From Nitrospirota bacterium (GTDB lineage: Bacteria; Nitrospirota; Thermodesulfovibrionia; UBA6902), in assembly GCA_016214845.1 (NCBI GenBank), contig JACRMS010000009.1, positions 1 to 47,890 on the forward strand: a DNA stretch of 47,890 nucleotides. Direction: 5' to 3'. The notes beneath the pieces were generated by a model, which made no database searches, had not been told where the DNA came from, and saw only the letters and a program-made list of their open reading frames with translations. The translations under genes and the position numbers were made by a program. Shown in pieces: positions 13,204-17,658 of the stretch; the first letter of the stretch is position 1; every line of letters begins with the position of its first letter.

Positions 13204-13893
13204 TTAACTGTCCGGTTGAATTAAAAAATAACCTTCATTTTCCGTCACTGTCCCCTTGGTTGACAGGACCTTCAGCGCCTTTGACACTGCTTCTCTTGAT
13301 GCCCCTATGCTTGAAGCCAGTTCTTTATGTGTATATTTTTTAATTTTGAAAGTGCCGTTTTTGTCCCTCCCGCCTTCCTTCACCGCGTTATGCATCAGGA
13401 ACCTCATGAGCCTTTCACTGACGTCGAGAAATACAAGGGACTCTATCACCTCGTCGGATTTCCTCAGCCTTTCCACCAGAATGGAAAGCAGGTTGATGGC
13501 GATCGAAGGGTCCTGCTTCATCGTGCCGATGAACCTGTCCCGCTTTAACACGGCAAGGGACGTTGCCGCTTCTGCCATGATGTTTGCGGAGCGGGACTTG
13601 CCGTCTATCAGGCTCATCTCGCCGAAGAAATCTCCTTCGTTGAAGGTAGTCAGGACAAATTCCTCTCCGTCAGGGCCGAGGAGGCTTGCCTTCACCTTCC
13701 CTTTGAGGACAATGAAAAGGTCAGTTCCTTCATCAGACTGGAAAACAACGTCATCGCCCTTTTTAACGGAGATGATTTTAAAATCGTCAATTATATTATT
13801 GAGATGCTTATCGGAAAAACTGCTGAACAGTGGGACCCTTCTGAGAAATTTCTCTATTAACTGTTTTTCTTTTTCGCCTATGACCATTTTCAT
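13204..13893 (-). CDS. Crp-type cyclic-AMP-responsive transcriptional regulator
   Basis: 229 residues: cNMP-binding beta-roll (about 18-130), dimerisation helix (about 135-160) and winged helix-turn-helix (about 180-225; YTHKELASSIGASREAVSK). The phosphate-binding cassette reads FGEMSLIDGKSRSAN and keeps the Glu and Arg that contact the ribose and phosphate of cAMP in this family. The recognition helix SREAVSKALK resembles that of Crp (SRETVGR). It is therefore the best candidate receptor for the product of the CHASE2 cyclase. The ATG overlaps the stop of the upstream cNBD-rhodanese gene by four bases, so the two are translationally coupled. The sigma-54-promoted barrel operon lies just downstream and could be a target. 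Confidence 0.93.
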   Translation of the reverse strand: MKMVIGEKEKQLIEKFLRRVPLFSSFSDKHLNNIIDDFKIISVKKGDDVVFQSDEGTDLFIVLKGKVKASLLGPDGEEFVLTTFNEGDFFGEMSLIDGKSRSANIMAEAATSLAVLKRDRFIGTMKQDPSIAINLLSILVERLRKSDEVIESLVFLDVSERLMRFLMHNAVKEGGRDKNGTFKIKKYTHKELASSIGASREAVSKALKVLSTKGTVTENEGYFLIQPDS

Positions 13894-14978
13894 TCTCCGG
13901 GGTCCTGGGGAAGATGGATGCCATCTTTGGTCCCGCCCACAGGGCCTTCCCAGGCGCTCAAACCACCGCGTATGCCTTTAGCTTTAAACCCCAGGCTTTT
14001 CAGAATGAAGGCAGCTGGAAATCCCCAGGCCTCCATGCCGCAGTATGTATAATATTCTTTTGACGGATCCAGCTCCGTATATCTCTTGCGCAGAAATTCA
14101 AGCGGGATATTGATCGCTCCCTGTATGTGCTCCTCCTCATACTGAGGCTGAAACCTTGTATCGATAAAGATGATATTTTTTAAATCCTCAGGAGTGATAT
14201 CTTCAGGGAAAACATGTTCAAGAAACGAAGCCTTTACCGTCTTGTCGAAGTCGGACCTGGAAAGCGACAGTACAACTGTGTCCTCTATCGCACGGCACGT
14301 TGCGCTGCGCCGCTTGCCGGAGATCAAGGCCTCTTCGCCGAATCCCTCGCCTTCACTAAGCACAGCCACCTGTTCCGGGCTTTCTCTGTTTTCCTTCTTT
14401 ATGACCGCCACCTTCCCGGACTTAACAACATAATACGCGTCTCCTACCTCACCTTCTCTGATAATATCTTCACCGAAGGCATAATTCTTCTCTACGAATT
14501 TATCGGACAGGGCAAACATCTTTTCCGGCTCAAGAAGAGCGAAGGGCTGGAGAGTTTTTATTTTATTGTATTCGGAATAGGCATGGGCCTTCGTACCCAT
14601 AATGCATGAAATGGCTGAATCTATCTGGACAATCTCATCAAAGTCTTTTTTGTACAGCTTGTAGAGTTTCACATCCGTTTTGGCGGTGACGGAAGTAAAA
14701 CGTGGAGAGCAAGTGAGCAAGGCCATCTCGCCGAAACCTTCTCCACATTTCAGGGATGTTATCCTGGCCTCCTGTCCCCATTTGGTGCTTTTAAAGACCT
14801 CGACTTCGCCTTTCTCCACCAGGTAAAAAGAATCCGCGGGGGAGCCTTCCCTGATGATGACCGCCCCTTCGGGAAGCTCAACGATTTCAAGCTTCAAAGA
14901 AAGCGCCCCCAGTGCGCCGTCTGAAAGATGAGAAAAATAAGAATACAGCTTCAGAATGTTAGGTGATAAGGTTCCCAT
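13890..14978 (-). CDS. Double cyclic-nucleotide-binding and rhodanese-domain protein, variant active loop
   Basis: 362 residues with no signal peptide. Two cNMP-binding domains are followed by a rhodanese domain. The first (about 10-125) has the cassette FGEMALLTCSPRFTS, the second (about 145-260) FGEEALISGKRRSAT; both keep Glu and Arg, so both should bind cAMP or cGMP. The rhodanese domain (about 270-345) has IIFIDTRFQPQYEEEHI and GAINIPLE, and its catalytic loop reads CGMEAWG. The Cys is present, but the usual Arg at the end of the loop is replaced. There is no DNA-binding domain, so the likely role is cyclic-nucleotide-controlled sulphur transfer or a regulatory interaction. The start has GGGAGG upstream. 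It overlaps the Crp gene by ATGA and is a paralogue of the gene at 15080-16153. Confidence 0.93.
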   Translation of the reverse strand: MGTLSPNILKLYSYFSHLSDGALGALSLKLEIVELPEGAVIIREGSPADSFYLVEKGEVEVFKSTKWGQEARITSLKCGEGFGEMALLTCSPRFTSVTAKTDVKLYKLYKKDFDEIVQIDSAISCIMGTKAHAYSEYNKIKTLQPFALLEPEKMFALSDKFVEKNYAFGEDIIREGEVGDAYYVVKSGKVAVIKKENRESPEQVAVLSEGEGFGEEALISGKRRSATCRAIEDTVVLSLSRSDFDKTVKASFLEHVFPEDITPEDLKNIIFIDTRFQPQYEEEHIQGAINIPLEFLRKRYTELDPSKEYYTYCGMEAWGFPAAFILKSLGFKAKGIRGGLSAWEGPVGGTKDGIHLPQDPGE

Positions 14979-15079: not shown

Positions 15080-16153
15080 TCAGGTAGGTGTAAACGCTGC
15101 ATGAACGCCTTCTGTATTGCCTTCCACCGGCCCCGGCCAGTTCATCAATCCGCCCTTAATACTTTTTGCTTTAAAGCCCTGGCTGTTTAAAAGAAATGCC
15201 CCAACCGCGCTTCTTGCGCCTAAAAGGCAATAGACAAAATATTCTTTTGATTGGTCCAGCTCCGAATATCTTTTTCTCAGTTCATCGAGCGGGACGTGTA
15301 TGGCATTGGGTATACGTTCTTCGTCAAACTCCATCTGCATACGCACGTCGAGGAAAACCGGATGTTCTTTTTTCAGCGCCTCTTCCGCTGCGATCTCATC
15401 AAGGAAAGAAGACTTCATGATCCGCTCGAAGTCGTCATGAGAAAGTGTCCAGACGACCGCATCTTCCGTGGCCCTGCATGTGGCGCTGCGCGGAGCGCCG
15501 GTGATGAGGGCCTCTTCTCCAAAACCCTGTCCTTCATGCAGAGTAGCTACCTGCTCCGGTTCGTCTCCGAACATCTTCTTTAAAACAGCGACACTGCCTG
15601 ATTTGATAATGTAGTACACGTCGCCTTTTTCGCCCTGTACAATAATATCTTCACCTGCTGGGTATTTGCGTTCTGCAAGTTTGTCCAGGATCGCTGCCAT
15701 CTTTTCAGGCTCAAGCAGGGCAAACGGCTGGAGGGTTTTCATTTGGTTGTACTGGGCAAAGCTTTGCGACTGCTTTTCAGCCATGAGAGAGAATGCGGAA
15801 TCCATGCGGACAATTTCTTCAAAGTCCGTCTTGAACAATTTCAGCAGTCTGACGTCTGTTTTTGCTTTGACGGAACAGCAGCGAGGTGAGCATGTCAATA
15901 AAGCCATCTCGCCGAAGCCTGCGGCATGACCGACAATTGAAAGCTTTGCCTTTTGTCCCCATTGAGTTTTCTTGAAGACCTCCACCTCTCCTTCTTTCAC
16001 AAGGTAAAAGGCGTCAGCCGGCACATCTTCTTTAATAATTTCAGCGCCTGCTGGAAGTTCAACTGCGTGGAGTTTTCTTGAGATCGCCTCAAGCGCCCCG
16101 TCTGACAGGTAAGAAAAGTAACAATATTTTTTAAGGTCTTTGTAATCAGACAT
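15080..16153 (-). CDS. Double cyclic-nucleotide-binding and rhodanese-domain protein
   Basis: 357 residues, closely similar along its whole length to the product of 13890-14978, so the pair arose by tandem duplication. The cNMP cassettes are FGEMALLTCSPRCCS (first) and FGEEALITGAPRSAT (second), both with the Glu and Arg needed for nucleotide binding. The rhodanese domain (about 265-345) has PVFLDVRMQMEFDEERI and the loop CLLGARS, which is the full Cys-x4-Arg active loop. This copy is thus expected to be catalytically competent, unlike its neighbour. It starts with ACGGAGGT upstream. The 101-base gap to the next gene contains a small AAGGGG/CCCCTT hairpin (15050-15066) that might attenuate transcription. 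It is the first of three cNBD genes and probably heads their operon. Confidence 0.93.
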   Translation of the reverse strand: MSDYKDLKKYCYFSYLSDGALEAISRKLHAVELPAGAEIIKEDVPADAFYLVKEGEVEVFKKTQWGQKAKLSIVGHAAGFGEMALLTCSPRCCSVKAKTDVRLLKLFKTDFEEIVRMDSAFSLMAEKQSQSFAQYNQMKTLQPFALLEPEKMAAILDKLAERKYPAGEDIIVQGEKGDVYYIIKSGSVAVLKKMFGDEPEQVATLHEGQGFGEEALITGAPRSATCRATEDAVVWTLSHDDFERIMKSSFLDEIAAEEALKKEHPVFLDVRMQMEFDEERIPNAIHVPLDELRKRYSELDQSKEYFVYCLLGARSAVGAFLLNSQGFKAKSIKGGLMNWPGPVEGNTEGVHAAFTPT

Positions 16154-16271: not shown

Positions 16272-16508
16272 TTACTTGTTCAGCAACTCGTCAATCTTTT
16301 CCTGATTAAATCCGGTCACTGCCTCGCCGTTTATTAAGGTCAAAGGGAGTGTCATGATGCCCATTTTCCTCAGGTCATAAATAGCGGCAGGCTCTGTTGC
16401 AATATTGCGCTCGGTATATTTAACGCCTTTTTGTGAAAGATACTCTTTCACTTTAGTACAGTACATTCAATTGGTCTGGCTGTAAACGACGACCGTCTTC
16501 TCCGACAT
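16272..16508 (-). CDS. Selenocysteine-containing glutaredoxin (UGA at codon 14)
   Basis: 78 residues if UGA is read through. The ATG at 16508 has a perfect ribosome site (GGAGG, 8 bases upstream). Codons 1-13 give MSEKTVVVYSQTN; codon 14 is TGA (16467-16469); the frame continues MYCTKVKEYLSQKG to the stop at 16272. This is the glutaredoxin/NrdH fold: VVVYS strand, N-U-M-Y-C in place of the usual C-x-x-C, the cis-Pro motif TLPLTLING, and GFNQEKIDELL. The UGA sits exactly at the first active-site Cys. A hairpin 15 bases later fits the bacterial SECIS rule (see 16433-16451). Without readthrough, a truncated frame starting at 16466 would lack the first strand and the nucleophile, so an ordinary pseudogene is the main alternative. 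It lies divergent from a thioredoxin-reductase-like gene, its probable partner. The selA/B/C/D genes must be elsewhere. Confidence 0.85.
16433..16451 (-). promoter_or_regulatory. Bacterial SECIS-like hairpin
   Basis: On the minus strand GTGAAAG and CTTTCAC pair perfectly (7 bp) around the loop AGTAT. The stem begins 15 bases and the loop 22 bases after the UGA of the glutaredoxin gene. This falls in the distance range known for bacterial SECIS elements, and the second loop base is G, as that rule requires. It lies within the coding region, as in other bacterial selenoprotein genes. Confidence 0.7.
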
Positions 16509-16701
16509 AATAAAATCCTCCATCCGTAGTAATAATTATAATTGAAAATTCAAAAAGATGATTAATATTATATAGATAATATTCAGGAAATAGCAATAAA
16601 ATTAGTCTTTTAATCTCCTCATGAAACTATTTGCTGAAAAAGATTTTTTTATGCGATTTTTGTAGAATAGAACACTGTTTTTTCAATCTGGAGGATTTTT
16701 A

Positions 16702-17658
16702 ATGACGGAAGAATTAGAAGAATTATATGATGTGATTATCATCGGCGGCGGGCCGGCCGGACTAAGCGCCGCGCAATATGCTTCCCGCGCCAAACTTAAG
16801 ACAATTGTCCTTGATAAATCGCAGGCAGCAGGCGCATTGGCTTTTTCAAGCAGGATTGAAAATTATCCGGGACTGCCTGAACCTGTCACAGGGAAGGATT
16901 TGCTTGATACCTTCCGCAATCAGGCAATAAAATTCGGCGCCGAATATGTTGAAACCCGGGTCATAGGAGTAAAACTTGAAGGCGAATTAAAAGAGGTCAG
17001 CGCGCTGGACAATACATATAAGGGAAAAACCTTAATAATCGCAACCGGCGCAATGGGCAGGCAGGCAAGCATCAAAGGAGAGAAAGAGTTTCTTGGCAAG
17101 GGCGTGTGTTACTGTGCAATATGTGATGCCGCGATCTTTTTTGATCAAACCGTCTGCGTAATCGGCGACAGTGAAGAAGCCCTTAAGGAAACCGGGGTTG
17201 TCGCCAAATTTGCCTCAAAAGTTTACTTGATTTCTCCTTCAAAGACACTTAAGCTGTCTGAGCATCCTCCATTTGATACGTCTAAGGTAACCCTTATGAC
17301 AGGTTATCGCGTGGTGTCCATTGAAGGCAACAGCGTTGTAGAATACGTGAAGGTCAGGAATGCCGAATCAAACGAAGAGCAGGACATTCAAACAAACGGG
17401 GTTTTTGTGTATTTGCACGGCAACAAACCCATAGTGGACTTTCTTGGCGGATCTATCGAACTTAGCGAGGAGTCCTGCGTAAGCACTAATAAAATGATGG
17501 AGACTTCCATCCCCGGCATTTTTGCGGCAGGAGATGTCATTTGCACCGAAGTACGGCAGGTCGTCACCGCTGCGTCAAATGGTTGCATCGCGGCGCTTTC
17601 CGCTGAAAAATTTATACATCACAGAAAACGGATGAAGTACGACTGGGCGAAAAGCTGA
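16702..17658 (+). CDS. Thioredoxin-reductase-like flavoprotein with degraded NADPH site
   Basis: 318 residues, the usual TrxB length. The FAD motif IIIGGGPAGLSAA (about 12-25) and the C-terminal FAD motif GIFAAGDV are intact. The redox pair is C138-A-I-C141, with an extra Cys136. The second nucleotide-binding motif reads VIGDSEEAL (153-161) where TrxB normally has GGGxSA, and the 2'-phosphate-binding HRR motif is replaced by SPS. NADPH use is therefore doubtful. Flavin-type thioredoxin reductases that take electrons from ferredoxin show similar losses. It starts with GGAGG 7 bases upstream and shares a 193-base intergenic region with the divergent selenoglutaredoxin gene, a likely redox partner. 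Confidence 0.88.
   Translation: MTEELEELYDVIIIGGGPAGLSAAQYASRAKLKTIVLDKSQAAGALAFSSRIENYPGLPEPVTGKDLLDTFRNQAIKFGAEYVETRVIGVKLEGELKEVSALDNTYKGKTLIIATGAMGRQASIKGEKEFLGKGVCYCAICDAAIFFDQTVCVIGDSEEALKETGVVAKFASKVYLISPSKTLKLSEHPPFDTSKVTLMTGYRVVSIEGNSVVEYVKVRNAESNEEQDIQTNGVFVYLHGNKPIVDFLGGSIELSEESCVSTNKMMETSIPGIFAAGDVICTEVRQVVTAASNGCIAALSAEKFIHHRKRMKYDWAKS

Follow-up and report, generated by a model that had tools for sequence, protein, structure and literature searches.

Introduction

A selenoprotein family of glutaredoxins (Grx) with selenocysteine (Sec) at the first position of a UxxC motif was described in 2005 and 2006, with members that include Geobacter and Alkaliphilus proteins (PMC1088965, PMC1794560), and the relevant part of a 2022 review table places UxxC Grx before the families headed "Predicted" (PMC9312934). 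The cited passages of these three papers do not mention Nitrospirota or Nitrospirae in connection with a UxxC Grx gene, and the deep-Sep paper mentions neither glutaredoxin nor Nitrospirota. cGrx1 from Clostridium (Alkaliphilus) oremlandii (7c10, 7c12, 7c13) is a native selenoprotein with a U(or C)PXC motif and has been proposed as the reductant of cMsrA (PMC7642778). Sec also occupies the first active-site position of the short Grx domain in Uxx-star (seleno)proteins. The NrdH-redoxins (TIGR02194) and YruB-type proteins (TIGR02196) share the short Grx fold and have Cys at this position; NrdH is reduced by thioredoxin reductase.

We analyzed a 47,890-nucleotide stretch of DNA (the window) from a groundwater-type Nitrospirota bacterium. 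Positions 16272–16508 of its minus strand almost certainly hold a bacterial selenoprotein gene of glutaredoxin fold, with Sec insertion predicted from sequence. The original prediction was of an unannotated selenoglutaredoxin with UGA in place of the first active-site Cys, and both the conservation among relatives and the sel genes agree with it; none of the three outcomes that it had named as refuting was observed. It had also described selenoglutaredoxins as an already known class, which is correct, UxxC Grx being a listed selenoprotein family. The window gene adds a well-supported member to this family, known since 2005.

Results

The coding sequence starts with an ATG at 16508 and runs for 78 codons up to a TAA at 16272. 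A Shine-Dalgarno sequence, GGAGG (16517–16521, minus strand), lies 8 nt 5' of the ATG, and a sigma-70-like promoter match, TTGCTA-18-TATAAT (16567–16596, minus strand; 10/12 positions), is present by consensus only. Codon 14 is an in-frame TGA (16467–16469, minus strand), followed directly by ATG-TAC-TGT (M-Y-C). The ribosome site, the start, the TGA and the MYC that follows had all been predicted, and each can be read in the sequence. With TGA read as Sec, the translation is MSEKTVVVYSQTNUMYCTKVKEYLSQKGVKYTERNIATEPAAIYDLRKMGIMTLPLTLINGEAVTGFNQEKIDELLNK, with the active-site motif U14-M-Y-C17.

The protein matches the Pfam glutaredoxin domain PF00462 with 52.6 bits (cut-off 22.9; E=5e-14). An AlphaFold2 model (pLDDT 91) places the CxxC-type motif at the start of helix 1 and a cis-proline at P55, and its best PDB match is 7c10, cGrx1 (TM 0.90, rmsd 0.9 Å). 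The two proteins are alike in size, fold and a UxxC motif with natural Sec; they share about 48% identity over 73 columns and a similar C-terminal helix, GF(D/N)xxKI(E/D)ELL. They differ in motif, U-M-Y-C in the window protein versus U-P-x-C in cGrx1, and in the phylum of their hosts, and MsrA does not track the window gene. As far as the cited passages describe the UxxC Grx from the surveys of the Sargasso Sea and of Geobacter/Alkaliphilus, the family (PF00462), the motif and the recoding mechanism are the same. The Uxx-star models NF041212, NF041211 and NF047338 give 41.2, 34.5 and 33.4 bits, below their cut-offs of 66, 100 and 97, and the window protein, unlike Uxx-star, has a resolving Cys. 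Scores for NrdH-redoxin (54.8 versus 85.75 bits) and YruB-type proteins (72.2 versus 88.55 bits) also fall short, and in both families a Cys stands where the window protein has Sec. Because the protein scores below the curated cut-offs of all the NCBIfam models listed here, glutaredoxin and Uxx-star alike, automatic annotation plausibly misses the gene.

A search of 150 relatives' genomes returned 10 close homologues in eight genomes (80–158 bits; 47–95% identical), the window's own included. The closest named relative of the genome is a Nitrospirae groundwater MAG, whose copy of the protein is 94% identical. Each of the 10 has a single TGA at the same codon and no other stop, and a more distant homologue, LB3_1, also has TGA at exactly this codon. 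Extending the search to 396 genomes of the phylum with a profile of the close homologues yielded further TGA-bearing relatives, mostly in a sister group with the motif U-x-D-C, together with more distant Cys proteins in which Cys aligns to the UGA column. The original prediction had called for a search for such Cys homologues and for signs of a conserved stop with decay in relatives; the former were found, and the relatives' frames are intact with TGA in place.

Two members of the U-x-D-C group, in G326 and G394, carry TGC or TGT for TGA, and the hairpin at the same register is gone. The tree of 50 rows requires four Sec/Cys changes, each forced by well-supported branches, although its resolution from 77 columns is poor. 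The distribution of the gene is patchy: within the genus, 7 of 10 genomes give no match, though a SelB match is present in all. In one U-x-D-C homologue with TGA (L029, genome G133), the hairpin appears shifted (GGCC-UGUAA-GGCC), and a Cys version occurs in the same genus (G326), possibly a Sec-to-Cys switch in progress. L055 and L056 (3483 and 2850 onward) belong to a different Grx-like group, with TGA in the motifs U-T-Y-C and U-P-Y-C, and have no hairpin at the usual register; their SECIS, if any, must lie elsewhere. All matches in a plasmid collection were below 60% identity, and the one from Acetoanaerobium noterae, a nearly unannotated record, is a Cys version, CSYC.

The predicted bacterial SECIS lies at 16433–16451 on the minus strand, supported by folding, covariation and synonymous constraint. 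It is a 7-bp hairpin, GUGAAAG-AGUAU-CUUUCAC, that begins 15 nt 3' of the UGA; the minimum-energy fold adds a further A-U pair, which extends the stem to 8 bp and leaves GUA as the loop. The stem length, AGTAT loop and 15-base distance originally predicted are therefore as described, whereas the position of the loop G depends on the fold, being second in the 7-bp form, as predicted, and first in the 8-bp fold. With an energy of −8.6 kcal/mol and a UGA-to-loop distance of 22–23 nt, the hairpin falls within the published limits for bacterial SECIS elements, 16–37 nt and at most −7.5 kcal/mol (PMC13188914). A comparable hairpin (stem ≥7 bp, G first or second in the loop, permitted distance) follows 114 of the 2037 TGA triplets in the window (5.6%), and 1173 of 20,000 synonymous recodings of the same peptide also produce one. 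Hairpin quality is thus common by chance, so that one sequence alone would not prove a selenoprotein, and we rejected it as proof.

What exceeds chance is the conservation of the hairpin. Among the 10 close homologues, the seven SECIS codons show synonymous differences in 9 of 282 same-residue codon pairs (3%). The corresponding figures are 61 of 127 for the spacer and 680 of 1191 (57%) for codons 13–61 after the UGA. The SECIS codons have the lowest synonymous variation of 61 seven-codon windows and are nearly frozen as GTG AAA GAG TWT CTT TCR. Across 24 homologous sites, the stem is paired in 91.9% of cells versus 79.0% after shuffling, double-sided changes occur at 5 of 7 stem pairs, and the covariation score was reached by none of 500 shuffles. 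A register shift of 1–3 bases in the partner lowers pairing to 36–60%. The stem of LB3_1, GAGAUAG/CUAUCUC, is fully compensated and its loop is retained; rows L029, L055 and L056 do not fit the hairpin at the common register. The selenoprotein case is accordingly made by conservation, the hairpin by itself being weak evidence.

These comparisons bear on whether the TGA could be a genuine stop, either within a decayed glutaredoxin or ahead of a protein that starts at ATG 16466 and lacks the nucleophile. The open frame from 16466 is visible to a gene caller, and in a single sequence a selenoprotein gene and a real stop are indistinguishable. This reading is highly improbable once relatives are compared, as the TGA is retained in 10 of 10 close homologues with the remaining frame intact. 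The first beta strand is built from residues encoded 5' of the TGA, which are conserved (V8 and Q11 are invariant). ATG 16466 is replaced by ATT, ATC or ATA in several homologues and has no Shine-Dalgarno sequence ahead of it, and a genuine stop would leave the conservation of the stem-loop without a reason.

The host genome has the machinery for Sec insertion. selA (E=1e-187), selB (E=2e-107) and a tRNA-Sec with anticodon tca (selC) lie within 12 kb of one another on one contig (G000:C14), and selD is present on another (L041, G000:C18:6917-7831), so that the full set sought under the original prediction is in the same genome. The selD frame itself contains an in-frame TGA and thus probably encodes a selenoprotein, a known situation. 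TGA ends 11 of the 33 window genes of at least 150 aa, mostly with 0–11 codons open beyond it, which argues that UGA is not globally reassigned. Genome-wide decoding of UGA to, for example, Trp or Gly (code 4 or 25), with which a lone in-frame TGA would be compatible, was rejected as having a negligible likelihood, being refuted by this stop usage, by the alignment of the UGA to Cys rather than to Trp or Gly in homologues, and by the complete sel set. Scanning the window for further short frames between genes that cross one TGA turned up no protein-like candidate. Candidate Sec-MsrA genes with one in-frame TGA were observed in the same bacterial family (G015:C78:22466-22864, G017:C12:18625-19032 and G020:C232:3806-4213). 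At the level of sequence, comparison establishes the frame, the conservation of the UGA and SECIS, the sel machinery and the predicted fold of the selenoglutaredoxin.

Downstream of the gene and on the same strand lie two paralogous genes for cNMP-cNMP-rhodanese proteins (15080–16153 and 13890–14978, minus strand). The first adjoins the selenoglutaredoxin in the three nearest orthologous loci, those of the window subclade, at a distance of 103–173 bases. Both paralogues fuse two cNMP-binding domains to a rhodanese domain, and G006 and G001 also have them in tandem. On the other side, 194 bp away and divergent, is a gene for a thioredoxin-reductase-like flavoprotein (CAIC; 16702–17658, plus strand), a possible reductase that scores 312.7 bits against TIGR01292 and does not reach the cut-off of 343. 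The original prediction suggested that the pairing was new. In a partial test of this, the flavoprotein gene adjoined the selenoglutaredoxin in two genomes only, that of the window and that of its close relative G006. It is also found in many genomes without a selenoglutaredoxin, and a fixed functional pair was rejected on both grounds. Neighbors in the sister clade include a CsoR/CstR-family repressor and DUF302 (G014), HMA proteins (G013, G025) and a CopA-type ATPase (G013, G014). At L063:5478-6408, a selenoglutaredoxin, DUF302 and a CsoR/CstR-family repressor form one run, with CopA-type ATPases nearby.

Discussion

The mechanism we propose begins with SelB on the hairpin just 3' of the UGA, where it would deliver Sec-tRNA(Sec) to codon 14. 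The product would be a 78-residue glutaredoxin-fold protein in which Sec attacks and the thiol of Cys17 resolves. Its catalytic steps, reductant, targets and physiological role are ones that we infer. The protein most likely functions as a small cGrx1-type thiol/selenol-disulfide oxidoreductase; by analogy with the cGrx1 family, the selenolate would attack an oxidized target, and the mixed selenylsulfide would then be resolved by Cys17.

Re-reduction would probably proceed through a thioredoxin-reductase-type flavoprotein rather than glutathione. Neither glutamate-cysteine ligase (PF04262) nor glutathione synthetase (PF02955) has a match in the genome, which is 96% complete. This result favors a reductant of the thioredoxin-reductase type, like that of NrdH, although at this completeness the missing glutathione genes are not proof of absence. 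Because the flavoprotein occurs in many non-carriers and is adjacent in only two genomes, naming the reductant is a guess, and we consider a thioredoxin-reductase-type enzyme to have roughly an even chance of being correct.

Alternatively, the selenoprotein could serve metal or sulfane-sulfur handling, such as persulfide or copper-thiolate reduction, rather than general disulfide reduction. The two cNMP-cNMP-rhodanese genes downstream in the window clade and the CsoR/CstR-family, DUF302, HMA and CopA-type neighbors of the sister clade point in this direction. Neighborhoods vary by clade, however, and those of G001b, G006b, G010 and G024 have no such genes; co-location is also not function, and we regard this role as unlikely. 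The rhodanese and copper-type neighborhoods are leads on function, not evidence of it. A dedicated role in reducing methionine sulfoxide reductase A, the one suggested for C. oremlandii cGrx1, is improbable. cGrx1 is the closest structural homologue and MsrA is present in the window genome, but only 2 of the 6 carriers searched have an MsrA match, several non-carriers have one, and no msrA adjoins the selenoglutaredoxin gene. MsrA was also rejected as an obligate partner. Quite doubtful, and offered as speculation, is a nucleotide-controlled selenol/persulfide relay in the window clade, formed by the selenoglutaredoxin and the paired cNMP-cNMP-rhodanese proteins; to our knowledge, no such relay has been described for selenoglutaredoxins.

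A small selenol-dependent oxidoreductase remains our preferred reading, encoded by a short gene that ordinary annotation is likely to truncate just past the catalytic residue. The finding extends UxxC glutaredoxin selenoproteins across Nitrospirota, in two related groups that keep Sec, UxYC/UxFC and UxDC, the latter with at least two Sec-to-Cys swaps in which the hairpin was lost alongside. The loci with rhodanese and copper-type genes provide a testable lead on the role of such proteins in organisms that apparently lack glutathione.
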